From positions 62,001 through 126,000 of the forward strand of contig MKUQ01000012.1 in the NCBI GenBank assembly GCA_001898645.1: DNA of 64,000 nt. The letters run 5' to 3'. Both the position numbers and the translations under genes were made by a program. Under the pieces are notes generated by a model, which did no database searches, was not told the origin of the DNA, and saw nothing but the letters and a program-made list of their open reading frames with translations. Origin of the DNA: Burkholderiales bacterium 70-64. Its GTDB lineage: Bacteria; Pseudomonadota; Gammaproteobacteria; Burkholderiales; Burkholderiaceae_E. This document shows, piece after piece, positions 4,054-35,300 of the stretch (the stretch's first letter is position 1; the number at the start of each line of letters is the position of its first letter).

Positions 4054-6057
4054 TCACGAGGCTTCCGGCGCGCCGGCCGCGGGCGCCAGCATCGCGTTGA
4101 GCCGGCGCACGAAGCCGGCCGGATCGCGCAGCTGGCCGCCTTCGGCCAGCACCGCCTCGTCGAGCAGGAGCTGCGCCCAGTCGGCGACGCGCCCGGGCTC
4201 GGCGCGCAGGCGCGCCACCAGCGCATGATGCGGATTGATCTCCAGGATGGGCTGGCGCGGCGGCGCCTTCTGGCCGGCCTGCTCGAGCAGGCGCTGCAGG
4301 TGGCCGCTGATCTCGCCTTCGTCGGAGACCAGGCACGAGGCCGAATCGGTGAGCCGGTTGGTGACGCGCACCTCCTTCACCGCATCGCCGAGCGCGGCCT
4401 TGATGCTCTCGGCGAGCGGCCGGAACTCGTCGGCGGCCTGCTGCGCGGCCGCCTTCTCGGCCTCGTCCTCGAGCGCATCGAGGTCGAGCCCGCCGCGCGC
4501 GACCGAGGCCAGCTCGTGCCCGTCGAACTCGGTGAGGAAGGACAGCATCCATTCGTCGACGCGGTCGGTGAGCAGCAGCACCTCGATGCCCTTCTTGCGA
4601 AACACCTCCAGGTGCGGGCTGCTGCGCGCAGCCGCCGGCGTATCGGCGGTGACGTACCAGATCTTCTCCTGGCCCTGCTTCATGCGTCCGGCGTAGTCGG
4701 CCAGCGACACCGTCTGCGCATCGTCGCCCGATGCGGTGGAGACGAAGCGCAGCAGCCTGGCGATGCGCTCGGCGTTGGCGCGGTCTTCGCCCACGCCCTC
4801 CTTGACCACCTGCCCGAACTCGCGCCAGAACTTTGCGTAGTCGTCGGGCCGTTCGGCCGCCATCTCCTCGAGCATCGACAGCACGCGCCGGGCGCAGCCC
4901 TCGCGGATCGCCCGCACGTCTCGGCTTTCCTGCAGGATCTCGCGCGAAACGTTGAGCGGCAGGTCGTTGGAGTCGATGACGCCGCGCACGAAGCGCAGCC
5001 AGCCGGGCAGCAGCTGCTCGGCGTCCTCCATGATGAACACGCGCCGCACGTACAGCCGCACGCCGCTGCGGCGATGGCGGTCGTAGAGGTCGAAGGGCGC
5101 GCGCGCCGGCACGTAGAGCAGCTGGGTGTATTCGGTGCGGCCCTCGACGCGATGATGCGCCCAGGCCAGCGGCTCGTCGTCGCCGTGCGAGAGATGCTTG
5201 TAGAAGGCGCGGTACTGCTCGTCGTCGATCTCCGCCTTCGGGCGCGCCCACAGCGCGCTCGCCTGGTTGACCGTCTCCCACTCGTCGGTGGTGCGCATGC
5301 GCTTGGCTTCGGCGTCCCACTCCTCCTTGCGCATGCGGATCGGCAGCGAGATGTGGTCGGAGTAGCGGCGCACGATGGCCTTCAGCGTCCAGGCCGACAG
5401 CAGGTCGTCGAAGCCCGATGCCTCGTCTCCCGCCGCCTCCCCCGTGCCGCCCGCCTCGCCGCCCTCGCCGGCCGGTTTCCGGCGCAGGTGCAGCGTCACG
5501 TCGGTGCCGCGGCCGGCCTTCTCCACGGTCTCGACGGTGAAGGCGCCGCTGCCGTCGGATTCCCAGCGCACGGCCTGGTCGGCCGGCAGGCCGGCGCGCC
5601 GCGACACCACCGTGACGCGGTCGGCCACGATGAAGGCCGAATAGAAGCCGACCCCGAACTGGCCGATCAACTGGGCGTCCCTGGCCTGGTCGCCGGAGAG
5701 GCGGTCGAAGAACTCGCGGGTGCCCGAGCGGGCGATGGTGCCCAGGTGCTCGATCGCCTCCTCGCGCGAGAGCCCGATGCCGTTGTCCGAGATGGTCAGC
5801 GTGCGCGCGGCCGCATCGGCCTCGATGCGGATCTGCAGCTCGCCGTCGCCCTCGTAGAGCTCGGGGCGGTCCAGGGCCTCGAAGCGCAGCTTGTCGCAGG
5901 CGTCCGAGGCGTTGGAGATCAGCTCGCGCAGGAAGATCTCGCGATTGCTGTACAGCGAATGGATCATCAGCTTCAGGAGCTGCGTGACCTCGGTCTGGAA
6001 TCCCAGCGTTTCCTTCATGGCATCCATCTCGTCGTTCGCAGTGGTCGAATCGGTCAT
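4054..6057 (-). CDS. htpG: Molecular chaperone HtpG (Hsp90)
   Basis: A 667-residue cytoplasmic Hsp90 chaperone that uses ATP to remodel client proteins. The GHKL ATPase domain is at the N-terminus: [36 protein letters not shown], and the lid [15 protein letters not shown]. The middle domain has the [17 protein letters not shown] catalytic-loop region, and a dimerisation domain follows. It is somewhat longer than the usual 630 residues. The extra length comes partly from a glycine/alanine-rich insertion (about residues 235-260, [18 protein letters not shown]) after the ATPase domain and partly from the N-terminal [13 protein letters not shown] extension. The ATG overlaps the parC stop codon as ATGA, so translation is probably coupled to the topoisomerase gene. 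Confidence 0.96.
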
Positions 6058-8386
6058 CGCGGCGTCTCCAGCACGGCGTCCCTGACGCGCGGCTCGAGGA
6101 AGCGCCCCTTGCGCGCACGGCTGCCGGCCCAGGCTTCGAGCGCCGCGGCGGAGAATACTCGGTCGACGGGCTTGCCGCCGCGCCCGGCGCCGCGCACGCG
6201 CACGCCGGCCTCGCCGAAGACGATCGCCTGGCGCAGGCGGTCCTTCGCGTCGAGCCCCATCAGGATCACCCCGCGCCCGCCGTTCCTGAGCACCTTCGCC
6301 TCGTCGAGGCCGAACACCAGCGCCTTGCCCTCGGCCGACACGCACAGCACCCGTCCCATGCCGGGGGCGAACAGCGCCGGGCGCAGCGGCACCTCGTCCT
6401 GTCCGAGCGCGAAGAACGCCTTGCCCTGGCGGGTGCGTCCGGCCAGGTCGGCGGCCTGGCACAGCAGGCCGGTGCCTCCGCTGGCGGCCAGCAGCACGCC
6501 GGCGCCGGGCGCCGCGGCGAAGGCGTGGTCGATGCGCGAGCCGGGCTCGAGCTCGACCAGGCTGGTGATCGGCGCGCCGTCGCCGCGCGCCGAAGGCAGC
6601 TGCGACACCGGCACCGAGTACACGCGGCCGTTGGTGGCGACGGCGAACAGCTGGTCGGTGGTCATCACCTCGTAGGCCCCGTACGGCCCGTCGCCGGCCT
6701 TGTAGCCGAATTGCGCGACGTCGTGGCCGTGGCCCTGGCGTGCGCGCACCCAGCCCTTCTCCGACACGATCACGGTCACCGGCTCCTCGGCGACCTCGAT
6801 CGTCGCCGAGGTGCGCTCGGCCGCCTCGATGAGCGTGCGGCGCGCGTCGCCGTAGGTCTTGGCGTCGGCCTCGATCTCGCGCACCACCTGGCGGCGCATC
6901 GCCACCGGGTTGGCCAGCAGCCCCTCGAGCGTGCCCTTTTCGCCGCGCAGCTCGGCCAGCTCCTGCTCGATGCGGATCGCCTCGAGACGGGCGAGCTGGC
7001 GCAGGCGGATCTCCAGGATGTCCTCGGCCTGCCGCTCGCTCAGCCCGAAGGCGGCGATCAGGGCCGGCTTGGGCTCGTCGGAGGCGCGGATGATGCGGAT
7101 CACCTCGTCGAGGTTCAGCAGCACCCGCTGGCGGCCCTCGAGGATGTGGATGCGCTCCTCGACCTTGTCCAGCCGGTGGCGGCAGCGCCGGGTGACGGTG
7201 CGCAGGCGGAACTCGCACCACTCCGACAGGATCTGCGGCAGGTTCTTCTGGCGCGGCCGGCCGTCCAGGCCGATCATCACCAGGTTCATCGGTACGCCGG
7301 TCTCCAGGCTGGTATGGGCGCGCAGCACGCGCAGCAGCTCGTCCTGGTCGATGCGCGAGGTGCGCGGCTCGAACACCAGGCGCACCGGGGCATCCTTGCC
7401 CGATTCGTCGCGCACCGCGTCGAGCACCGCCAGCAGCGCCTGCTTGAGCTGCAGCTGCTCGGGCGTGAGCGACTTCTTGCCGGCGCGCACCTTGGGGTTG
7501 CTCAGCTCCTCGATCTCCTCGAGGACCTTCTGCGCCGACACCCCGTGCGGCAGCTCGGTGACCACGAGCTGCCACTGCCCGCGCGCCAGGTCCTCGATCG
7601 CATGGCGTGCACGCACCTTGATCGAGCCGCGCCCCGAGGCATAGATCTCGCGCAGCTCGGCCGGCGTGGAGATGATCTGGCCGCCGCCGGGGAAATCGGG
7701 GCCCGGTATCAGCGCCAGCAGCTCGTCGACGCCGGTATCGGGCTTCTTGAGCACGGCCACCGCCGCCGCGGCCACCTCGCGCAGGTTGTGCGGCGCGATC
7801 TCGGTGGCCATGCCGACGGCGATGCCCGAGGCGCCGTTGAGCAGCACCATGGGCAGGCGCGCCGGCAGCAGCCGCGGCTCCTCGGTGGAGCCGTCGTAGT
7901 TGGGCACGAAGTCGACCGTGCCCTGGTCGATCTCGTCGAGCAGCAGCCGGGCATAGGGCGTCAGGCGCGCCTCGGTGTAGCGCATCGCCGCCGCGCCGTC
8001 GCCGTCGCGCGAGCCGAAGTTGCCCTGGCCGTCGATGAGCGGATAGCGCAGCGTGAACGGCTGCGCCATGCGCACCAGCGCGTCGTAGGCCGCCACGTCG
8101 CCGTGCGGATGGAACTTGCCGAGCACGTCGCCCACCACGCGCGCCGACTTGACCGGCTTGGCGCCCGGGCCCAGGCCCATCTCGTTCATCGCGTGCAGGA
8201 TGCGCCGCTGCACCGGCTTCTGGCCGTCGCACACGTCGGGCAGCGCGCGCCCCTTGACCACCGACACCGCGTAGTCGAGATAGGCGCGCTCGGCGTAGTG
8301 CGCCAGCGCCAGGGCCTGCTGCGCCTCGCGGTCGTCGACGGCGAAGAGGTCCGGCTCGCTGGTGCCGGTCGTGCCCGCGCCGGCCA

Positions 8387-26730: not shown

Positions 26731-26822
26731 GGAGAGATGGATGAGTGGTTTAAATCGCACGCCTGGAAAGCGTGTAGGGGTCTCAAAGCCCCTCGGGGGT
26801 TCGAATCCCCCTCTCTCCGCCA
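26731..26822 (+). tRNA. tRNA-Ser (anticodon GGA)
   Basis: A 92-base class II tRNA. The acceptor stem GGAGAGA (26731-26737) pairs with TCTCTCC (26812-26818), followed by G73 and an encoded CCA. The anticodon stem CACGC/GCGTG holds the loop CTGGAAA, giving anticodon GGA (serine UCC/UCU). The long variable arm and GGTTCGAATCC T-arm are clear. A TATACT -10 lies at 26716-26721. The 3' end is the left attachment site of the integrated element that follows. Confidence 0.97.
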
Positions 26823-26831
26823 GAATGACAT

Positions 26832-26860
26832 ACGCCCGCGTTCGCGGGCGTTCTTGTTTG
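26832..26860 (+). terminator. Rho-independent terminator of tRNA-Ser
   Basis: A 9-bp perfect stem (arms ACGCCCGCG and CGCGGGCGT, two-base loop) is followed by a T-rich tract TCTTGTTTG. It is 9 bases after the tRNA CCA and insulates the integrase gene from tRNA transcription. Confidence 0.85.
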
Positions 26861-26938
26861 TACGGAAATCCTCTGGAAACCCGCGCCAGTCCTGGCTTCT
26901 ATCGACTGTGGCTGTTCCGCACGGTTCGCAGTCGTTCG

Positions 26939-26967
26939 TTGACAGTCGCAAATTGTACGGGTACGGT
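26939..26967 (+). promoter_or_regulatory. Integrase promoter
   Basis: A perfect TTGACA -35 (26939-26944), 17-base spacer and TACGGT -10 (26962-26967) lie 33 bases before the GTG of the integrase. The surrounding GGTAC-containing direct and inverted repeats (26957-26977) could be integrase arm sites. Confidence 0.6.
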
Positions 26968-26999
26968 TTCGGGTACCGATTCCGGAGGGATACCGAACC

Positions 27000-28238
27000 G
27001 TGCCGAAGAAGATCATCGAGGCGCTGTCGGACGTCATGCTGCGAGGCGCGAAGCCGCGCGCTGCCGACTACAAGCTCAACGACGGGCGCGGGCTCGTACT
27101 CATCGTCAAGCCAACCGGCGCGCGGCTCTGGCGGCTGCGCTACGTCTTCGCCGGCAAGGAGCGGATGCTCGCATTGGGCGAGTACCCGGACGTGGGTCTG
27201 AAGGTCGCGCGTGAGCGGGCGGCCGCTGCCCGTGACCTGGTTGCACAGGGCACCGACCCGGTACAGCACAAGCGCGAGCAGGTGGCGCAGCGGGTGAACG
27301 CGGCCCTGCAGACGTTCGAGGTCGTCGCCGAGGAGTGGATCGCCAAGAAGGCGGCGGCCAAGAAGAAGCGCTGGACCGACGGCCACCTCGAGCAGAACCG
27401 CCAGAGCTTGCGCGACTACGTGTACCCGAGAATCGGCAAGCGACCGATCGGCGCGCTGACCGCGCAGGATATCGTCCAGGTGCTCACGCCGATCGAACAA
27501 GCGGGCAAGCTCGAAACCCTGCGCCGGGTCCGGCAGCGCATTGGCGCGGTATTCGCCTACGCGGTGCAAACCGGTCGGCGCACCGACAACCCGATCCGCG
27601 ACATCGGAGGCGCCTTCGAGGCGCCTGAGCGGCAGCACTTCGCCAGCATCAAGCCGGCCGACCTGTCGGCCTTCCTGACGCGCCTGGACGCCTACCAGGG
27701 CCATCCGAGTACGAAGGGGATCATCCGCATGATCCTGTGGACCGCGAGCCGTACCGGCGAGATACGCGGGGCGACGTGGGACGAATTCGACCTGGACGCA
27801 GGTAAGTGGACGGTCCCGGCCGAGCGGATGAAAAAGCGCCGTCCACACGTCGTACCGCTACCGCCGCAAGCCGTGGCGATGTTGCGCGAGCTGCGCGACG
27901 TGAACACCGACCGATTGGCGTTCGCATCGCCGAACAGCATCGATCAGATGGCGTCGGAAAACGTCGTCCTGCAGGCGCTGAAGAAGATGGGCTACGGCGG
28001 CAAGCTCACGGGGCACGGGCTGCGCGCCACCGTCGCTACTGGCCTCGAAGAAATGGGCTTTCCGGTGGAGATCGTGAAGGCGCAGCTCAGCCATGCGAAG
28101 GACAACCTGACCGACGCCGCGTACCTGCGCGGGGTTCACCTTGAACGGCGCACGACGATGATGCGGCAGTGGGCCGACTGGATCGACGGCAAGCCGGGTG
28201 GGAAGGTGGTGAAGATGCCGGCGCGGGGTGCGGCGTGA
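27000..28238 (+). CDS. int: Tyrosine recombinase / P4-type integrase
   Basis: A 412-residue site-specific recombinase that inserts the element at tRNA-Ser. It has an N-terminal DUF4102-type arm-binding domain (about 1-90, LNDGRGLVLIVKPTGARLWR), a SAM-like core-binding domain (about 100-200), and a catalytic domain. The catalytic residues are Arg256 (ASRTGEIRGATWDEFD), His339 and Arg342 (GHGLRATVAT), His365 and nucleophile Tyr375 (DAAYLRG). All are present, so it should be active. The GTG start is preceded by GGAGG at a good distance. Its location right after the tRNA 3' end is the usual prophage/satellite arrangement. The next gene starts within its stop (GTGA overlap). Confidence 0.95.
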   Translation: MPKKIIEALSDVMLRGAKPRAADYKLNDGRGLVLIVKPTGARLWRLRYVFAGKERMLALGEYPDVGLKVARERAAAARDLVAQGTDPVQHKREQVAQRVNAALQTFEVVAEEWIAKKAAAKKKRWTDGHLEQNRQSLRDYVYPRIGKRPIGALTAQDIVQVLTPIEQAGKLETLRRVRQRIGAVFAYAVQTGRRTDNPIRDIGGAFEAPERQHFASIKPADLSAFLTRLDAYQGHPSTKGIIRMILWTASRTGEIRGATWDEFDLDAGKWTVPAERMKKRRPHVVPLPPQAVAMLRELRDVNTDRLAFASPNSIDQMASENVVLQALKKMGYGGKLTGHGLRATVATGLEEMGFPVEIVKAQLSHAKDNLTDAAYLRGVHLERRTTMMRQWADWIDGKPGGKVVKMPARGAA

Positions 28239-28798
28239 GCGCCGACGACCAGGTGTTCGACCCGTGGGCGCCGATCGAATCCGAGGCGGCCAGACGCTAT
28301 CGAAACGACCACGAATTGATGCAGGGCGTCATTGCTCGCGGCATCACCCGTCGTCGAAGCGAAATCGAGAAAAGCGGCTTCGAGGTAATGCAGGCAGTCG
28401 CCGACTGCGCGCGTTACGAACTGGTTATCCCGCCCTGGCTTGCCGATGAATTCAAGCGACGGTTCAACGCGGTGAGGAACCACGTCGCCAGCTCGTGGGA
28501 CGACGAGCAGTCATTCGGCCGGCCGTACCCGAAAGGGACGCACCTGCGCACCCTGCGCAAGGAACGGCTGTGGCCGGAGATTCACCTCATCGCCCGCAGG
28601 CTGCTCGACGAAAACTCCGCGCGGCCTATCGACGAATCGTTTTTCGACAGCGTGGCGGAGAGGCTACGAGCGCTCAAGGGTATCGAGGACCGGATCGGAG
28701 GCCTGCAGGGATTGGGGCGTAGCGAAGTCCAGCGCATCTACTACGAGACCCGAGACCGAGCAGCCGCGCTTTTCGGTACTGCCGGGAATTCGCGATAA
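28235..28798 (+). CDS. Hypothetical protein, element-borne
   Basis: A 187-residue soluble protein of unknown family. It is rich in Arg and Glu, with long predicted helices (about 30-50 and 110-150), no signal peptide and no membrane segment. Recognisable segments include PWAPIESEAARRYRNDHELM and RRLLDENSARPIDESFFDSV, neither of which I can tie to a known domain. A GTG overlapping the integrase stop (GTGA) is taken as start, so translation is coupled to int. Position between integrase and excisionase suggests a role in mobility control or host interaction, but that is inference only. Confidence 0.65.
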   Translation: MSADDQVFDPWAPIESEAARRYRNDHELMQGVIARGITRRRSEIEKSGFEVMQAVADCARYELVIPPWLADEFKRRFNAVRNHVASSWDDEQSFGRPYPKGTHLRTLRKERLWPEIHLIARRLLDENSARPIDESFFDSVAERLRALKGIEDRIGGLQGLGRSEVQRIYYETRDRAAALFGTAGNSR

Positions 28799-28836
28799 AT
28801 CCCGGTTATACGTCGCCGTCGCCAAACAATCTAATC

Positions 28837-28883
28837 GTGTTCGTCTGTGCCGCTGGTGGCGCAGCGTGGTTAAGGACGAACAC
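28837..28883 (+). promoter_or_regulatory. Inverted repeat / leader hairpin before the excisionase gene
   Basis: Perfect 9-bp arms GTGTTCGTC (28837-28845) and GACGAACAC (28875-28883) enclose a second weaker stem (TGTGCC with GGCGCA). The right arm ends two bases before the excisionase ATG. It could be an operator or an RNA hairpin controlling excisionase translation. Confidence 0.5.
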
Positions 28884-28885
28884 AC

Positions 28886-29017
28886 ATGCAACGACTTGTT
28901 CACACTGTCCCGCAGGCCTCCGAGGCCGCGCAAACGGGACGAACGAAGCTCTACGCGGAAATCGCAGCCGGACGGCTTCGCGTCGTCAAGGTCGGCAGAA
29001 AGACGCTGAGGCGGTGA
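28886..29017 (+). CDS. Tiny excisionase / AlpA-like helix-turn-helix protein
   Basis: A 43-residue protein: MQRLVHTVPQASEAAQTGRT, then KLYAEIAAGRLRVVKVGRKT LRR. The ASEAAQTGRTKLYAEIAAGR part is the winged-helix recognition region shared by AlpA/excisionase-type DNA-binding proteins (usual form EAARLLGIGRTKLYxLIAAG). Relatives normally continue about 15-20 residues past the GRRTL motif, so this copy is short at the C-terminus, ending at LRR. It may be truncated but still folded. Its stop overlaps the next start as TGATG. In satellites, AlpA-type proteins control excision and expression. The gene is small and easily missed; domain similarity and tight coupling support it. Confidence 0.72.
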   Translation: MQRLVHTVPQASEAAQTGRTKLYAEIAAGRLRVVKVGRKTLRR

Positions 29018-29175
29018 TGAACGAGCCGCAGCGCGATCTGAAGCCTTGCCCGTTCTGCGGCGGGCCGGCATCACTCTCACCGATGATGCTGTCACCAAAG
29101 GTGAAGGTGTCGCTCTGGTGGAAGGTGCGGTGCGACTCGTTCCACTGCGGCGGTACCCCCCTCTGGGAACCGTAG
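29017..29175 (+). CDS. Lar-like zinc-ribbon protein (restriction alleviation family)
   Basis: A 52-residue protein, MNEPQRDLKPCPFCGGPASL, with a CPFCGG knuckle near residues 11-16 and a second cysteine pair in RCDSFHCGGTPLW. This is the layout of small phage Lar/restriction-alleviation-type proteins, whose founding member in Rac prophage moderates host type I restriction. Function here is inferred from the motif only. The ATG overlaps the excisionase stop (TGATG), and its own TAG is immediately followed by the capsid ATG, so it is part of the head-gene transcript. Confidence 0.68.
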   Translation: MNEPQRDLKPCPFCGGPASLSPMMLSPKVKVSLWWKVRCDSFHCGGTPLWEP

Positions 29176-30417
29176 ATGAACCTTCAGACGATCCGCGAGC
29201 AGCGCGCCGGCCACGTTGCCGAGATGCGCACGATGCTCGCCAAGGCCGAGGGCGAGAAGCGCTCGCTGTCGGCAGACGAACAAGCCGCCTTCGACACACT
29301 GAAGTCGAAGATCACCGACCTGGAATCGCAGGAGGCGCGCGCGCAATTCCTGCTCGACGCCGAGCGCCGGATGATGGGTACGCCGGCCGGCGGCGGTGAT
29401 CGTTCCTTCGCGGATCTCGAACGCCGCGTCAACGTGCTCGACGTGCTGCGTGCCGGCATGGAAGGCCGAGCGCTCGACGGAGCCGCCGCCGAGTACTCGC
29501 GCGAGACCGAGCGTCGCACCGGGCGCAAGGCGCAGGGCGTGTTCGTGCCGCTGGCTGCGCTCGAGCAGCGCGTGAGCACGACCACCTCGGTAAGCGATAT
29601 CGTGCCGACCGACCACCGGCCGGACCAGTACATCTCGCCGTTGCGCAATGCGCTGCTGGCGCGTCGGCTGGGCGTGCGCGTGCTCTCGGGCCTGAGCGGC
29701 AACGTCTCGATTCCGAAGCACGGCTCCGGCCTGACGGTCGGATGGGTTGCCGAGAACAGCGCGCTGACGCCGAGCGACATGTCGTTCGATTCCGTGATGC
29801 TTTCGCCGCGGCACGCGGGCGGGCTCACCGAACTGTCGCGCCAACTGATCCAGCAGTCGAGCCCCGACATCGAGCGGCTGGTGCGCGAGGATCTGGCCGC
29901 GATGCTGGCGCAGGCGATCGACTCGGCGCTCATCAAGGGCGGCGGCGCGAACGAACCCGACGGCGTACTCGCGTCGGTCGGCACCAGCGGGGTCCAGTCG
30001 GGCACGCTCGCGACGCCGACCTGGGCTCAAGTGCTCGGCATGATCGAGATGGCCGAGCTCGAGAACGCGCCGGTGTCGTCCTGGCTCACGCACCCGGAAG
30101 TAGCCACGAAGCTGCGCGGCACGCTCAAGGCAACGGGCCTGCCGGGCTACCTGCTCGAAAACGGGCACATGGCCGAGCGGCCGGTATACGTCACGAATCA
30201 GGTTCCCGCGACTGGCTCGCCGGCCACCGGCACCGTGATCCTCGGCGACTGGTCGCAGGCGATTCTCGGGATCTGGAGCGAAGTCGACATCCTCGTGAAC
30301 CCGTTCGCCGAGACGGCGTACACGAAGGGGAACGTGCTGGTTCGCGCGATGTCGACCGTCGACGTGGCGCTGCGTCACCCGCAGGCGTTCGTCGTCGCGG
30401 ACGACGTGGCGATCTGA
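29176..30417 (+). CDS. HK97-family phage major capsid protein
   Basis: A 413-residue major head protein. The N-terminal 70 residues form a charged coiled coil (ERRMMG end), the delta scaffold domain that is removed by the prohead protease. The HK97-fold core follows with SDIVPTDHRPDQYISPLRNA, RLGVRVLSGLSGNVSIPKHG, AHQ-type AMLAQAIDSALIKGGGANEP and the C-terminal RHPQAFVVADDVAI. The length is normal. It is the first of the head genes, with the protease second, the opposite of typical phages. The next gene overlaps by one base (TGATG). No separate scaffold gene is needed in this family. Confidence 0.93.
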   Translation: MNLQTIREQRAGHVAEMRTMLAKAEGEKRSLSADEQAAFDTLKSKITDLESQEARAQFLLDAERRMMGTPAGGGDRSFADLERRVNVLDVLRAGMEGRALDGAAAEYSRETERRTGRKAQGVFVPLAALEQRVSTTTSVSDIVPTDHRPDQYISPLRNALLARRLGVRVLSGLSGNVSIPKHGSGLTVGWVAENSALTPSDMSFDSVMLSPRHAGGLTELSRQLIQQSSPDIERLVREDLAAMLAQAIDSALIKGGGANEPDGVLASVGTSGVQSGTLATPTWAQVLGMIEMAELENAPVSSWLTHPEVATKLRGTLKATGLPGYLLENGHMAERPVYVTNQVPATGSPATGTVILGDWSQAILGIWSEVDILVNPFAETAYTKGNVLVRAMSTVDVALRHPQAFVVADDVAI

Positions 30418-30926
30418 TGACGCTCGAGCGACGCGGCGCGGCCGGCGCGGTGTCGGCGAAGGGCCGGCACCTTGTCGGCTACGCCGCGCGATTCGGCGTG
30501 CAGACGAACATCGGTTCCTTCCGCGAGCGCATCGCACCGGGCGCGTTCGCCGCCTCGCTCGCTTCCGGGCGCGACATACTCGCGCTGGTCGATCACGATC
30601 CGAAGGCGCTGCTCGGGCGCACGCGATCGGGCACGTTGATGCTGAAGGAAGACGCCGATGGACTTGCTTTCGATCTGGCTCTACCTGACACGCGGTCCGC
30701 TGCTGACCTGCTGGCACTGGCCGAGCGCGGCGACATCGGCGGCATGTCTTTCGGGTTCGTGGCGCGTGAGGATCACTGGACTGGCGATCTTCGCGAACTG
30801 CGCGCTGTAGAGCTTCACGAAATCTCGGTCGTCCAATCGTGGCCGGCATACGAGCAGACGACGGTCGCGGTGCGCGCCAGGCACGCCGAGCACGACCTGC
30901 GCCGGCTGTGGCTGCTGACCGTATGA
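30417..30926 (+). CDS. HK97-family prohead protease
   Basis: A 169-residue serine protease (U35 type) that cuts the delta domain from capsid subunits during head maturation. Catalytic His60 lies in ALVDHDPKALLGRT and Ser111 in RGDIGGMSFGFVAR. The VELHEISVVQSWPAYEQT stretch gives the third conserved region. The N-terminus VGYAARFGVQTNIGSFRERI APGAF is characteristic. The start overlaps the capsid stop by one base and its stop overlaps the portal start (ATGA), so stoichiometric expression is coupled. The sequence is complete and not truncated. Confidence 0.93.
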   Translation: MTLERRGAAGAVSAKGRHLVGYAARFGVQTNIGSFRERIAPGAFAASLASGRDILALVDHDPKALLGRTRSGTLMLKEDADGLAFDLALPDTRSAADLLALAERGDIGGMSFGFVAREDHWTGDLRELRAVELHEISVVQSWPAYEQTTVAVRARHAEHDLRRLWLLTV

Positions 30927-32062
30927 AGTTCCTGCGACGACTCTTCGAACGCCGCTCGACGAACCAGGCACCCGGCGGCGATTCGTACTGGCAGGACTTC
31001 TCCGCGTTACGTAGTAACGCAGTGACGCCGCAGAAGGCCGAGAGCATCTCGGCAGTGTACGCCTGCGTCGCGGCCATCAGCGAGACGATCGCATCCCTGC
31101 CGCTGATCCTGTACAGGCGCGCCGCGTACGACGACCGGGAGCGCGCCACCGATCATCCGCTGTACCGCGTTCTTCACGACGCGCCGAACGAGCAGCAGAC
31201 CGCGCTCGAGTTCCGCGAGCAGATGCAGGCGGCGGTGCTCCTGCGCGGAAACGCCTTCGCCGAGATTCGATTCGGCTGGGACGGTCAGGTGCGCGAACTC
31301 GTGCCGATCCACAACGATCGCGTCAACGTCATCGAATTGGACAGCGGCCGACTCGGGTACGACGTGCTCGACACGAAGGGCCGGATGCACCGGCTCGTGG
31401 CCGAGGAAGTCTTTCACCTGCGCCATCGCTCGGAGAACGGCGCCGTCGGCGTCTCGCCGATCACGGCCGCGCGCGAAGTGCTCGAGCTGGCTCTGCAGGA
31501 GCGCGACCATGGCGTCGCCACCTTCCGCAACGGCACGAAGCTGTCCGGCATCCTGCAAACGCCTGCGCACCTGTCCGACGCGCAGTTGCAGAGCCTGCGC
31601 GATACCTGGGCGCAACGCTACAGCGACACGGCGAACGCTGGAAAGACGGCGGTGCTCGGCGCTGGCATGGAATTCAAGCCGGTGTCGATGACGCTCGAAG
31701 ATGCCGAGTGGATCGCGGCGCGGCAATTCAGCGTCGAAGAAGTCGCGCGCCTGTTCCGCGTGCCGCCGACCGTCATCGGCGATCTGAGGCATGGCAACTA
31801 CTCGAACAGCGTCGAGATGTCGCGCGTCTTCGTGACGATGACCTTGCGCCGGCACCTGGCCGCGTGGGAGCAGGCCATCTCGCGACAGCTGCTCACCGAG
31901 GCAGGCAGGCGAACGTACTTCGCCGAGCACTCGGTCGAAGGGCTGCTGCGCGGCGACTCGACTACCCGCGCCGCGTTCTACGAACGAGGGATCGCCGATG
32001 GATGGCTCGACGTGGACGAAGTGCGTCGACTCGAAAACCTTCCTGCTCGGCAGGCAGCATGA
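30923..32062 (+). CDS. Phage portal protein (HK97 family)
   Basis: A 379-residue portal subunit, twelve of which form the ring at the head vertex through which DNA enters. The N-terminus MKFLRRLFERRS leads to AVYACVAAISETIASLPLILYRR (the typical VxACVxxIaxxiaxLPl opening). HDAPNEQQTALEFREQMQAA VLLRGNAFAEI follows, and near the end RLFRVPPTVIGDLRHGNYSN, all family hallmarks. An ATGA overlap joins it to the protease. The length is slightly short for HK97 portals (about 400-420), mainly in the C-terminus. The following gene overlaps its stop (ATGA) and is an HNH nuclease. Confidence 0.93.
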   Translation: MKFLRRLFERRSTNQAPGGDSYWQDFSALRSNAVTPQKAESISAVYACVAAISETIASLPLILYRRAAYDDRERATDHPLYRVLHDAPNEQQTALEFREQMQAAVLLRGNAFAEIRFGWDGQVRELVPIHNDRVNVIELDSGRLGYDVLDTKGRMHRLVAEEVFHLRHRSENGAVGVSPITAAREVLELALQERDHGVATFRNGTKLSGILQTPAHLSDAQLQSLRDTWAQRYSDTANAGKTAVLGAGMEFKPVSMTLEDAEWIAARQFSVEEVARLFRVPPTVIGDLRHGNYSNSVEMSRVFVTMTLRRHLAAWEQAISRQLLTEAGRRTYFAEHSVEGLLRGDSTTRAAFYERGIADGWLDVDEVRRLENLPARQAA

Positions 32063-32463
32063 AGCGGCCGATTCTGCACCTGCCGAAGCGAGCGAACCCG
32101 ACCGGGCGCACGGCCGATCCGCGTCGAACGATCCCGCTCAACACGGCGAGATGGCAGCGGCTGAGGGCACTGGTACTCGCCGAGCATCCGCTGTGTGCGC
32201 ACTGCTTCGCCCTCGGACGAGTGGCGTTGGCCACCGACGTTGACCACGCCGACGGCAACCCCGGGAACAACGCGCGCGGCAACCTGCAAAGCCTCTGCCA
32301 CGCGTGCCACTCGCGCAAGACCGGGCGCGAGCGCGCGGGGCTGCCTGCGGACCACGGCTGCGACGTGAACGGCTGGCCGCTCGATCCCGGGCATCCGTGG
32401 AACGAAAAATCGCCAGCAACCGAGCGAGTCCAGACCGACCGTGCTCCCTCGATTCACCGCTAA
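32059..32463 (+). CDS. HNH endonuclease (packaging-associated)
   Basis: A 134-residue HNH nuclease. Zinc cysteines are in HPLCAHCFALG (Cys46, Cys49) and LCHACHSRKT (Cys80, Cys83), and the HNH core in VDHADGNPGNNARGNLQSLC, with His63 and Asn75 conserved. Such proteins sit next to terminase genes in HK97-like phages and help the large terminase cut DNA at cos sites. It overlaps the portal gene by 4 bases and lies just before the small terminase, as in HK97-type cos phages. That suggests the element is packaged by a cos mechanism. Confidence 0.92.
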   Translation: MKRPILHLPKRANPTGRTADPRRTIPLNTARWQRLRALVLAEHPLCAHCFALGRVALATDVDHADGNPGNNARGNLQSLCHACHSRKTGRERAGLPADHGCDVNGWPLDPGHPWNEKSPATERVQTDRAPSIHR

Positions 32464-32473
32464 CCGAGACGCC

Positions 32474-32920
32474 ATGAAGCCCCGACAGCGACGCTCCGAC
32501 AGCATCACGGCGGCCGTTGTGGCCGCTCAGAACGCCGCACAAGCGCCGATCGAGCCCCCGGAGCACGTCACCCTGCCCGAAGCGGCTGCGCCGTTCTGGC
32601 GGGCTCTGATGCTCAATCGCCCGCGTGACCGCTGGAACGATGCGGATCTCGCCGTCGCCGCGCATCTCGCCCGGGCGCAGGCCGATGCAGAACGCCTGCA
32701 ACGCGAGATCGACGCCGAAGGCGACCTGCTCGGCGAGAAGCTCAATCCGAAGCATCGCCTGCTCGAGACCATCATCAAGCGCATCGTGCTCCTGTCGCGC
32801 ACGCTGAACGTCCATGCCGACGCCACGGTCGGGCGCGCTGCCGACCAGGTGAAGCCGTTGCATCTCGAACAGCAGGCTCGCGCCATCGAGCGCGACGACT
32901 TGATCCCGCTGATGCAATGA
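32474..32920 (+). CDS. Phage terminase small subunit (P27 family-like)
   Basis: A 148-residue packaging protein that recognises element DNA and recruits the large terminase. The N-terminus MKPRQRRSDSITAAVVAAQN is basic. A helical core follows with LPEAAAPFWRALMLNRPRDR WNDADLAVAAHLARAQAD. A linker GEKLNPKHRLLETIIKRIVL ends in a second helical region with TLNVHADATVGRAADQ. This layout matches P27-type small terminases. The ATG at 32474 was preferred over an in-frame GTG inside the HNH gene. Its stop overlaps the large terminase start (ATGA). Because it sets packaging specificity, it is key to whether this element packages itself. Confidence 0.85.
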   Translation: MKPRQRRSDSITAAVVAAQNAAQAPIEPPEHVTLPEAAAPFWRALMLNRPRDRWNDADLAVAAHLARAQADAERLQREIDAEGDLLGEKLNPKHRLLETIIKRIVLLSRTLNVHADATVGRAADQVKPLHLEQQARAIERDDLIPLMQ

Positions 32921-34428
32921 CCCGCGCCGGGCGGATCATCGCCTTCATCGAGCGTTACTGCGTCACGCCCGAGGGCGCGCACGTCGGCGAGCCGCTGCGC
33001 CTTGCCGAGTTCCAGAAGCGGTTCATCCGCGAGGTGTACGACAACCCCGCCGGCACGCGGCGCGCGTACCTGAGCATCGCGCGGAAGAACGGCAAGTCGG
33101 GCCTGATTGCTGGCCTGCTGCTCGCGCATCTCGTCGGACCCGAGGCGAAGTTGAACTCGCAGATCGTCAGCGGCGCGATGTCCCGAGACCAAGCCGCGCT
33201 CGTCTTCGGGCTGGCGGCGAAGATGGTGCGCCTCTCCGAGAAGCTCTCGCAGATCGTGCGCATCGTGCCGAGCGGCAAACGCCTGATCGGCCTGCCGCTG
33301 AACGTCGAGTATCGAGCGCTCGCGGCCGAGGGCAAGACGGCGCACGGGCTTTCTCCGGTGCTGGCGATCCTCGACGAGGTGGGGCAGGTGCGCGGACCGC
33401 ACAGCGACTTCATCGACGCGATCACGACGAGCCAAGGCGCGCACGACTCGCCGCTGCTGATCGCCATCTCGACGCAGGCGGCGAGCGATGCCGATCTGTT
33501 CTCGCTGTGGCTGGACGACGCCGAAGCCTCGAACGACCCGCGCATCGTCTCGCACCTCTACGCGGCGCCCGAGGACTGCGATCTGATGGACGCCGACGCC
33601 TGGCGTGCGGCGAACCCGGCGCTCGGGATCTTCCGTTCCGAGGACGACCTGCGCGAGCAGTTGACGCAGGCCGGGCGGATGCCCAGCGCGGAGAACGCGG
33701 CGCGGAACCTGCTGCTCAATCAACGGGTGTCCACCGACGCGCCCTTCGTCTCGCCGGCCGTCTGGGCGTCCTGCGCAGGCGACGTGCTGCCGTTCGACGC
33801 CGATACGCCGGTCTTCGGCGGGCTGGATCTGTCGGCGCGCACCGACCTGACGGCGCTGGTGCTCGTGGGCAAGGTGGCCGGCGTCTGGCAGGTGGTGCCG
33901 CACTTCTGGACGCCGAAGACCGGGCTTGCCGATCGGGAGCGCCGGGACCGCGCGCCATACGTCACCTGGGCGCGGCAAGGCTTCCTGCGCACGACGCCGG
34001 GGGCGAGCGTCGATTACGAGCACGTCGCGACCGACATCGCCGGCATCGTGGCGGGGCTGAACCTGCAGGCGGTTGCGTTCGACCGCTGGCGCATCGACGT
34101 GCTGCGGCGCGAGTTCGAGCGCATCGGCTGCTCGCTGCCGCTGGTGGAGTGGGGGCAGGGCTACAAGGACATGGCGCCGGCGCTCGATGCGCTCGAAGCC
34201 GAGCTGCTCAATGCGCGCATCGCGCACGGCGACCATCCGGTGCTGCGCATGTGCGCGGCCAATGCCGTGGTGGTGAAAGACCCGGCCGGCTCGAGGAAGC
34301 TGGACAAGGCCCGCACGACCGGGCGCATCGACGGCATGCAGGCGCTCGCGATGGCGATCGGCGCGGCGGCGGCGACCGAGGTCACGCAGCCGATCACCAG
34401 CATCGAGCAGTTGATCGCCTTCGTATGA
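32917..34428 (+). CDS. Phage terminase large subunit (HK97/P27 family)
   Basis: A 503-residue packaging motor and nuclease. The ATPase has Walker A ARKNGKS (55-61, in YLSIARKNGKSGLIAG) and Walker B LAILDEVGQV (Asp153, Glu154), with the coupling motif AISTQAA near 188. The nuclease domain begins VFGGLDLSARTDLTALVLVG with the metal aspartate, and the GYKDMAPALDALE segment and final GRIDGMQALAMAIGAAA follow family pattern. All motor residues are present. The start overlaps the small terminase stop, and the stop overlaps the next small gene (ATGA). Full length argues against a decayed prophage. Confidence 0.94.
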   Translation: MTRAGRIIAFIERYCVTPEGAHVGEPLRLAEFQKRFIREVYDNPAGTRRAYLSIARKNGKSGLIAGLLLAHLVGPEAKLNSQIVSGAMSRDQAALVFGLAAKMVRLSEKLSQIVRIVPSGKRLIGLPLNVEYRALAAEGKTAHGLSPVLAILDEVGQVRGPHSDFIDAITTSQGAHDSPLLIAISTQAASDADLFSLWLDDAEASNDPRIVSHLYAAPEDCDLMDADAWRAANPALGIFRSEDDLREQLTQAGRMPSAENAARNLLLNQRVSTDAPFVSPAVWASCAGDVLPFDADTPVFGGLDLSARTDLTALVLVGKVAGVWQVVPHFWTPKTGLADRERRDRAPYVTWARQGFLRTTPGASVDYEHVATDIAGIVAGLNLQAVAFDRWRIDVLRREFERIGCSLPLVEWGQGYKDMAPALDALEAELLNARIAHGDHPVLRMCAANAVVVKDPAGSRKLDKARTTGRIDGMQALAMAIGAAAATEVTQPITSIEQLIAFV

Positions 34429-34619
34429 AGACGGTGCGTCAGCAGGAGATGGAAGCGCAACTGCGCGCCGAGATCGCGCAGCGCGGCCTGCGCATCGAGC
34501 AGCACGGAAAGGCGGTGCGCGTGGTCGGCGTCGGGGTCGACGTTATGGCATCCCGGCTGACGTACATCACGGTGCGCGATCTGGAACCGATCTCTACCCC
34601 TGCCGGTGGGGCCGCGTGA
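34425..34619 (+). CDS. Small hypothetical protein after terminase
   Basis: A 64-residue soluble protein, MKTVRQQEMEAQLRAEIAQR then GLRIEQHGKAVRVVGVGVDV and a Thr/Pro/Gly-rich tail. It has an N-terminal amphipathic helix and a beta-strand-like middle. I do not recognise a family. It overlaps the terminase stop as ATGA, so it is the last gene of the coupled head-gene block. It could be a connector or packaging accessory, but nothing in the sequence proves that. Confidence 0.6.
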   Translation: MKTVRQQEMEAQLRAEIAQRGLRIEQHGKAVRVVGVGVDVMASRLTYITVRDLEPISTPAGGAA

Positions 34620-34766
34620 GCGGGTTGCCGGACACGGATCAGACGGTGAGTGCCGTGTCATGAGAAAACCCCGTCAGCCGGCGGTGCTCGCTTTTCCACG
34701 GGCGCGCGGCCGGTATCCGACATCTGACTCTGCTACGATGACTCCGTGTGTCGGTTTCCGGTGGCT

Positions 34767-34880
34767 CGATTCACCGGGTGAATCGCGGCAAGGCATGGCC
34801 TCAATCCCGAGGCCAACAGGGACGGCGCCCGGCACATACGGCCCCCTGCTGGCTTCACCCCTTATGTAGGAGTTGAAGCC
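34767..34880 (+). promoter_or_regulatory. Highly structured leader / candidate regulatory RNA
   Basis: Four consecutive hairpins are visible in 114 bases. The first is a dyad with arms CGATTCACC/GGTGAATCG (34767-34785). The second has arms GGCCTC/GAGGCC (34797-34814) and the third CAGGG/CCCTG (34817-34848). The fourth has arms GGCTTCA (34851-34857) and TGAAGCC (34874-34880), with the AGGAG ribosome site (34868-34872) in its loop and its 3' arm touching the ATG at 34881. It looks like a translation-control element or structured RNA. The rest of the 34620-34880 gap shows no convincing gene. Confidence 0.55.
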
Positions 34881-35072
34881 ATGAATGAGCAAGAGAAGAT
34901 CTGCGCAAGAGTTGCGGAGGCGGCGCGTGCCTTGCTAGGCGAAGAAGCGCAGGCGAACGTGCGCTACGACAGCCAAAAGGAAGTCTGGCAGCTCTGGGTC
35001 GGCACGCGGGTTGAGGACGAAAAGTTCTCACTCCTTACTCTCGCGGAAGCGTGGGGCGTCTCAAACGCCTAA
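34881..35072 (+). CDS. Small hypothetical protein at the element end
   Basis: A 63-residue, mostly acidic soluble protein: MNEQEKICARVAEAARALLG, then EEAQANVRYDSQKEVWQLWV and LLTLAEAWGVSNA. A helix followed by a strand-rich part is likely. No known family is recognised. A good AGGAG ribosome site is 8 bases upstream but lies in the loop of a hairpin that ends at the start codon. Base composition is clearly less GC-rich than the host genes, which supports an element origin. A terminator-like hairpin follows 21 bases after the stop. Confidence 0.6.
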   Translation: MNEQEKICARVAEAARALLGEEAQANVRYDSQKEVWQLWVGTRVEDEKFSLLTLAEAWGVSNA

Positions 35073-35093
35073 GGTAATCTTGTAGTTCTCTTC

Positions 35094-35113
35094 GAGCCGC
35101 CTACGGGCGGCTC
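35094..35113 (+). terminator. Terminator-like hairpin after the last element gene
   Basis: Perfect 8-bp arms GAGCCGCC and GGCGGCTC with a TACG tetraloop lie 21 bases downstream of the small gene at 34881-35072. The following CTTCGT is only weakly T-rich. The rest of 35073-35317 holds no credible gene. Confidence 0.6.
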
Positions 35114-35248
35114 CTTCGTACCTGCTGGTGCTCGACTACCAGTGCGGCGCTGATCGGCGGTGCGGCCAGCACCCTTTCATAGAGAGATCGGGTAGGCATA
35201 CGGGTACATCGGCGGTAAACCGGCCGGAAAGCCTTTACTGGCGCGGCA

Positions 35249-35267
35249 GTTCGACGGCCCCTCTCCC
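35249..35267 (+). other. Candidate decayed right attachment site
   Basis: GTTCGA, three unmatched bases, then CCCCTCTC repeats the tRNA-Ser T-arm/acceptor sequence GTTCGA-N3-CCCCTCTC at 26799-26815 with the same spacing. If real, it is the displaced original 3' end of tRNA-Ser and marks the right end of the element. Three internal mismatches and divergence after the match leave it uncertain. Confidence 0.4.
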
Positions 35268-35277
35268 ACGGCACCAT

Positions 35278-35300
35278 CGGCCCGCTTGGCAGGCGGGCCG
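35278..35300. terminator. GC hairpin after the VOC gene, copy 1
   Basis: Arms CGGCCCGC and GCGGGCCG with a 7-base loop lie 17 bases past the VOC gene stop (minus strand). No T-run follows. A near-identical hairpin lies at 35923-35947, so the VOC region is bracketed by two copies. Confidence 0.55.

Follow-up and report, generated by a model that had tools for sequence, protein, structure and literature searches.

Gene content and borders of the element at tRNA-Ser(GGA)

The window, a stretch of 64,000 nucleotides from Burkholderiales bacterium 70-64 (contig MKUQ01000012.1, positions 62,001 to 126,000; contig C12 of a 4.72 Mb draft genome of 63 contigs), contains an element of ~8.4 kb that runs from a tRNA-Ser(GGA) gene to ~35263. 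All of its genes lie on the strand of the tRNA and comprise an integrase, a head operon and both terminase subunits, an arrangement related to that of the capsid-forming phage-inducible chromosomal islands (cf-PICIs). Its features are given here in window coordinates; numbers with the prefix L are labels of the related loci and contigs compared in this analysis.

26731–26822, + strand: tRNA-Ser(GGA), its 3′ end forming the left attachment (attL) side (ARAGORN, Rfam)
27000–28238, + strand: tyrosine integrase of 412 amino acids with Arm-DNA-bind_3, Phage_int_M and Phage_integrase domains (PHROGs, Pfam)
28235–28798, + strand: orf2, 187 amino acids, function unassigned (no match in PHROGs, Pfam or NCBIfam)
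28886–29017, + strand: shortened AlpA/excisionase-like protein, 43 amino acids (sub-threshold TIGR01764 match, comparison with relatives)
29017–29175, + strand: Lar-like zinc-ribbon fragment, 52 amino acids (under the Pfam and NCBIfam cut-offs)
29176–30417, + strand: HK97-fold major capsid protein, 413 amino acids (PHROGs, Pfam, capsid relatives)
30417–30926, + strand: prohead protease, Peptidase_S78 (PHROGs, Pfam)
30923–32062, + strand: portal protein, PF04860 (PHROGs, Pfam; sole PF04860 match in the genome)
32059–32463, + strand: HNH endonuclease (phrog_2323, 6.8e-28)
32474–32920, + strand: small terminase TerS (phrog_5601; PHROGs)
32917–34428, + strand: large terminase TerL (PHROGs, Pfam; 65% identity to HK97 TerL, with 94% of the query aligned)
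34425–34619, + strand: orfA, 64 amino acids, overlapping the Proteo-phage-1 RNA (no relatives among the compared loci; no NCBIfam match)
34597–34679, + strand: Proteo-phage-1 RNA, RF03044 (Rfam, 78.9 bits against a gathering score of 42)
34881–35072, + strand: orfB, 63 amino acids (no relatives among the compared loci; no match in PHROGs, Pfam or NCBIfam)
35162–35263, + strand: right end, homologous to L094 15468–15569 and carrying a degenerate attR-like sequence (15 of 20 bases of the tRNA 3′ end)

The integrase, capsid, protease, portal, HNH, TerS and TerL gave best PHROGs E-values from 6.8e-28 to 2.7e-124, and the integrase, capsid, protease, portal and TerL passed the Pfam cut-offs as well; HNH and TerS had no Pfam match. 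With the tRNA called by ARAGORN, these searches confirm the genes that the original prediction had placed beside tRNA-Ser from the letters alone. The predicted lack of tail, lysis and replication genes also stood: none of these families matched in the 10 open reading frames (ORFs) scanned with PHROGs and Pfam, the AlpA-like ORF and orfA being scanned against NCBIfam only. The prediction had made no mention of orf2, the Lar-like fragment, the absence of neck genes or the RNA. Distant relatives of orf2 (23–32% identity) follow int in L135, L091 and L062, ahead of alpA or cap, and the end of orf2 is helix-turn-helix-like by eye. A search for sigma-70-like promoters in 26800–35300 found 0, against 0.7 expected in shuffles.

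The right end was set at ~35263 because positions 35162–35263 align at 79% with the right end of L094, and because the DNA beyond that end of L094 resembles, by eye, the DNA that follows tRNA-Ser(GGA) in the congeners L048 and L049; the end predicted earlier, 35267, was close. There is no perfect attachment-site (att) repeat, and the best match near the right end, 15 of 20 bases, is at a level reached by chance elsewhere in the window. We also sought proof from an empty site in congeners: tRNA-Ser(GGA) was found, with acs upstream of it in L046 and L047, but the downstream gene order was unlike that of the window and no clean empty site emerged.

A family of related elements

When one genome per species was scanned with an alignment of five capsids, 37 loci emerged, and the best 80 of 193 from a scan of viral contigs raised the total to 117; this number includes near-copies and five Pasteurellaceae loci sharing only the first 60–80 capsid residues. 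Gene order was read with local profiles built from relatives. The genes cap, pro, port, HNH and terL occur in this order in 73/117 loci, 49 of these having an integrase upstream, and the family layout is int, alpA, variable genes, cap, pro, portal, HNH, terminases and often neck genes, many elements measuring ~10–12 kb. The block therefore recurs in relatives, where the original prediction had proposed to look for it, and many copies sit beside tRNA genes: of 28 loci examined for tRNA and tmRNA genes, 21 contained one, frequently adjacent to the integrase or to the right end.

The other 44 loci do not show that order. In L076–L080 and L082 terL precedes cap, and L074 is without protease and portal. 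Seventeen loci with more than 2 kb after the portal show no terL by the profiles used (L057, L059, L061, L062, L064, L083, L086, L104, L116, L120, L134, L135, L140, L141, L142, L144 and L145) and, judged by their genes, have another packaging module or none. The remaining non-matching loci are cut off by a contig end in or close to the block.

Hosts are beta- and gammaproteobacteria and include Pusillimonas, Hydrogenophaga, Acidovorax, Nitrosospira, Massilia, Herbaspirillum, Pseudomonas, Luteimonas and Billgrantia. The earlier suggestion that such an element would be new in a betaproteobacterium does not hold, given relatives in Alcaligenaceae, Comamonadaceae, Oxalobacteraceae and Nitrosomonadaceae. 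Some members appear in extrachromosomal form. With 125-bp end repeats (124/125 identical) and an integrase, L142 probably represents a circular molecule of 11.1 kb, formed when a relative was excised or packaged. L114 and L166, contigs of ~10.9 kb with the full head–terminase–neck block, are bounded by perfect terminal repeats of 127 and 87 bp, and the profile used detected no integrase in either; L114 holds a ParA-like ORF (by eye). An Acinetobacter schindleri plasmid carries a head–packaging–neck block near repM (L255:5863–14881), and L114, L166 and L255 are apparently episomal versions of the same satellite.

The capsid matched 75 of 50,697 phage records, all at less than 60% identity and at no more than 37% among the 30 matches listed; in the six phage records inspected, the annotated capsid gene is longer than the portion aligning to the window capsid. 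In a tree of 110 capsid sequences the window groups with L090, L091 and L053 (support 95–98). The six phage capsids form a separate cluster outside the family (support 97), although long branches make the deeper joins unsure (program warning), and a single E. coli capsid of cf-PICI layout, L176, is very distant on a very long branch. Homologues are not confined to full prophages, the finding that had been named as counting against a satellite: the nearest relatives found, L090, L091, L053 and L094, have a satellite layout, although the L090 contig ends just after terL.

Two relatives are particularly instructive. L094 (IMG/VR; the same contig as L231, with near-identical capsids in L093 and L095) matches 26924–28238 of the window at 5057–6367 with 82% DNA identity. 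It shares the right end, the Lar-like gene and the lack of a detectable neck gene in the ~277 bp between the TerL match and the right end, and probably has the same target locus; it differs in a TerL of another lineage and in that RF03044 does not reach the gathering score. A second integrase and alpA lie on the opposite strand just left of this sister element (L094:2161–4719), the integrase being present in L231 as well, and L094 may be part of a tandem array of elements stacked at one tRNA-Ser; no tRNA gene was found in L094 or L231. The Pusillimonas TS35 element (L053, also labelled L038 and L092) resembles the window in its capsid (74% identity), its gene order and a Proteo-phage-1 motif after terL. 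It differs in lying beside tmRNA and in having a full AlpA, the neck genes Phage_HCP and Phage_connect_1, and a 365-amino-acid ORF ahead of cap, apparently of replication type by eye and without a Pfam match.

The interval between alpA and the capsid gene is unusually short

The window stands apart from this family in the region ahead of its capsid gene. Between the profile matches, AlpA and capsid are 168 bp apart, against 1115–4161 bp in 67 other loci, and integrase and capsid 986 bp apart, where 72 other loci have 2126 bp or more (both sets include near-copies). Two small genes at this place appear cut. The AlpA ORF extends 40 residues from the start of the match, compared with at least 51 in 81 other AlpA ORFs, and it aligns with the AlpA of L091 through arginine 43 and then ends. 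A tiny excisionase had been predicted here: an AlpA-like ORF does exist, but it is just a 43-residue fragment of what is longer in relatives, scoring 19.3 bits against the TIGR01764 cut-off of 28.8. The Lar-like ORF measures 52 amino acids, versus 68 in L094 and 91 in L090; its end is lost after CGGT, and the directly adjoining sequence resembles, by eye, the capsid leader of L094 and L096.

Fuller relatives carry several genes in the corresponding stretch. L090 has an h72-type gene, a PC4-like (PF02229) gene at L090:2738–2974 and a topoisomerase-like ORF (PHROGs); L094, with a full AlpA, has an h72-type gene, a 220-amino-acid ORF and a topoisomerase-like ORF (similarity by eye). The replication initiator Pri-Rep had no match among the scanned window ORFs, the family profiles were silent and the interval offers just 168 bp. 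Remnants of neck or replication genes did not rise above noise anywhere in the window, the profile filters being off for the neck search. The small interval is best read as the product of a deletion in some fuller ancestral element.

Head and packaging genes are intact and constrained

The predicted absence of decay in the head genes was borne out. Ratios of nonsynonymous to synonymous substitution rates (dN/dS) between the window and L090 are 0.20 for cap, 0.21 for the protease, 0.20 for the portal, 0.25 for HNH, 0.26 for TerS and 0.27 for TerL. With L053 as outgroup, the six head and packaging genes of the window carry 89 unique amino-acid changes versus 120 in L090, TerS alone being reversed (14 versus 10); the integrase was left out of this count, that of L090 being a different lineage (42 versus 89). 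Higher dN/dS ratios occur in other comparisons (TerL 0.82 versus L094 and L091, protease 0.71 versus L094), values that we attribute, from the sequences compared, to swapped or distant genes. In the window the head genes remain open, evolve under purifying selection and show no acceleration, a state compatible with a recent deletion as well as with continued use.

Neck genes are absent from several members

Neck (head–tail connector) genes give a more varied picture. Among 61 loci with a complete cap followed by a complete terL (near-copies included), 44 have gp6-like or closure genes, nine, the window among them, lack neck genes despite at least 800 bp after terL, and in eight the contig ends too early. 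The window gave no neck signal even with the profile filters off. Some loci leave little room for such genes, the TerL match lying ~324 bp from the tRNA in L056 and ~315 bp in L091. A divergent neck gene may reside between alpA and cap in neckless loci, where PHROGs recognised none in 10 ORFs of L055, L090, L091, L094 and L099. Because the neckless loci are spread over several branches of the capsid tree, neck loss in the family seems recurrent, and genes listed as part of cf-PICIs are missing from several family members.

A candidate helper module in the same genome

Contig C39 of the same assembly (L174:3095–9574) encodes closure, neck, tail terminator, major tail, tape measure, distal tail, hub and NlpC-type genes. 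The hub, of RcGTA type, and the closure gene exceed the NCBIfam cut-offs; the distal tail and NlpC genes fall below them. The tape measure was recognised by PHROGs but not by PF10145. About 4 kb of ORFs follow the tail module before the contig ends, and the two largest neighbouring ORFs had no PHROGs match. The module may be an incomplete prophage or a cluster resembling a gene transfer agent (GTA), because the assembly has no PF04860 portal other than that of the window.

Comparison with known systems and interpretation

According to excerpts of the cf-PICI literature, these elements carry capsid, protease, portal, head–tail connectors, HNH, terminases, AlpA and Pri-Rep (PMC10690885, PMC10448857), their capsids form three radiations (PMC11389934) and they are called widely distributed (PMC10690885). 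The window has the integrase and attachment site (with a degenerate right att core), capsid, protease, portal, HNH, TerS and TerL. Compared with the E. coli element L176 of strain TUM9757, whose cf-PICI layout is our label and not that of the record, it likewise has the integrase at one end, the capsid, protease, portal, HNH and terminase genes in the same order and no annotated tail or lysis genes; it differs in a very distant capsid, a truncated AlpA and the lack of Pri-Rep and head–tail connectors. The prototype EcCIEDL933 was not found in E. coli EDL933, at a guessed position only. We describe the element as cf-PICI-derived and stop short of classing it among the cf-PICIs, because the head and packaging features are present while Pri-Rep and the connectors are missing and the shortened AlpA is inconclusive. 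A cf-PICI-like origin is supported, and a working minimal satellite is a prediction only. The cf-PISP satellite-plasmids, as far as described in excerpts of PMC13230959, share their head–packaging layout with the circular L114 and the Acinetobacter plasmid L255; the window differs in being integrated and in showing no plasmid genes.

We consider it fairly probable that the window copy is a deletion derivative of a cf-PICI-type satellite, integrated by its own integrase at the 3′ end of tRNA-Ser(GGA). The original prediction of a satellite would then be right as to origin, the element having an integrase, heads and packaging of its own and no tail gene that could be found; the small size, with the 168-bp interval and the cut AlpA and Lar, would not be a design. 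By analogy with published cf-PICIs, the fuller relatives would use AlpA and replication genes to excise and amplify a circle, build heads from their own capsid, protease and portal, fill them with their own HNH and terminase, and obtain tails and lysis from a helper phage. In the window copy, a deletion between alpA and the capsid gene would have removed the replication genes, truncated AlpA and taken away part of Lar. Unaided excision and replication are most likely beyond such an element; if its genes are transcribed it may still assemble and fill heads, and mobilisation in trans might occur. This suggests a route by which a head-making satellite gets pared down.

Several observations weigh against a deletion derivative. 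Eight other loci are also without neck genes, so that neck loss is not in itself damage. L094 and L091 differ from each other between alpA and cap, which weakens any reconstruction of the ancestral layout. Decay is not seen in the head genes, which would suit a recent deletion or an element that is still in use. A narrow exact-pattern scan of viral contigs for a second copy of the reduced form gave 0 matches, and an integrase scan returned 17 loci, only L231 and L232 exceeding 38% identity, again with no reduced second copy; the L232 contig showed no head gene but ends 1.1 kb after the integrase. The short interval might also be a misassembly in the 63-contig draft.

A working minimal satellite, in which the integrase and the head and packaging operon suffice and a helper provides replication, excision help, neck, tail and lysis, would fit the open and constrained head genes, the eight further neckless loci, some with as little room as L056, L091 and L094, and the tail module on C39; head-forming Streptomyces satellites without an obvious replicase are also reported in an excerpt of PMC10690885. 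We nevertheless regard it as unlikely: AlpA and Lar are cut and not cleanly absent, none of the 67 other loci has so short an alpA–cap interval, no second copy was seen, and the C39 module may be incomplete or non-phage, its neighbours having no PHROGs match and no PF04860 portal accompanying it. Rather more doubtful still is a version in which a working satellite borrows replication, neck and tail while the Proteo-phage-1 RNA at the operon end serves its cycle, for example in packaging or late regulation.

Gene transfer agents are not known to carry an integrase or attachment site and typically occupy a conserved host locus. A head-making locus domesticated by the host, GTA-like or acting as an anti-phage decoy, would fit the constrained head genes and the RcGTA-like tail module elsewhere in the genome, with its hub over the cut-off, and cf-PICI and GTA capsids have been grouped by structure (PMC12846349, in excerpt). 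The element in the window, however, brings an integrase of its own and ends in an att-like sequence, and its TerL has a match in only 5 of 73 other genomes of the bacterial family, the best 50% identical, which is not the pattern of a conserved host locus; we judge domestication very unlikely. It is most improbable that the element is the remnant of a full HK97-like prophage stripped of tail, lysis and replication genes. The TerL identity to HK97 would be explained in this way, but the capsid has no close phage relative, the six phage capsids fall outside the family in the tree (on long branches), and the block recurs in ~10 kb elements, many beside tRNA genes. Gene order also differs: terS–terL–portal open the HK97 genome with HNH at its other end, whereas the window reads cap–pro–port–HNH–terS–terL.

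The Proteo-phage-1 RNA and other RNAs

The RNA 3′ of terL belongs to RF03044 by its score. Of 15 loci searched with this model, many of them chosen because the motif had already been seen, 11 exceeded the gathering score: the window, L053, L055, L063, L071, L097, L099, L126, L136, L153 and L154 were positive, and L074, L090 (whose contig ends 63 bp after terL), L091 and L094 negative. With a nucleotide profile the motif appeared in 33 of 123 loci, 31 times 3′ of terL or a closure gene (seeds and near-copies included). A pattern scan of viral contigs that does not depend on proteins found 47 contigs, of which L092 and the contigs of L136 and L154 were already known. The motif adjoins a family-type terL in 26 and a closure gene in L225; L188 has satellite genes with the motif not adjacent, and 19 had no match to the head profiles, five of these being 38–70 kb long. 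Among 399 genomes of the order, including that of the window, four pass the RF03044 cut-off; three belong to the family (the window's own genome, G169 and G333), and the fourth, G080, has no head gene within 3 kb. By blastn the window copy had one partial match, covering 27% of the query, in the 50,697 phage records.

Positions 34620–34700 alone show no excess secondary-structure stability (z 0.00), and the RNA call therefore rests on the Rfam model and sequence conservation. We also considered the motif as a cos site and found this unsupported: the HK97 genome ends are unlike it (by eye), and the motif contigs without head-profile matches, including the five of 38–70 kb, weaken the idea further. 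The term 'Proteo-phage-1' was not found in the literature searched, coverage of which misses most subscription journals. This orphan RNA family gains a home in many of these satellites, and its function becomes testable.

Three smaller observations concern related contigs. L205, a 9.8 kb contig with the motif and an integrase, has a 47-bp terminal repeat like a tRNA 3′ end and no head-profile match. A second orphan RNA, int-alpA (RF02996), passes in three of the 15 Rfam-scanned loci, downstream of int (L053:7403–7469, L071:6708–6773 and L099:2419–2487), and not in the window. Finally, a C4 antisense RNA (RF01695), a type known from P1/P7-type phages, is present at L136:2482–2571 in a satellite of this family.

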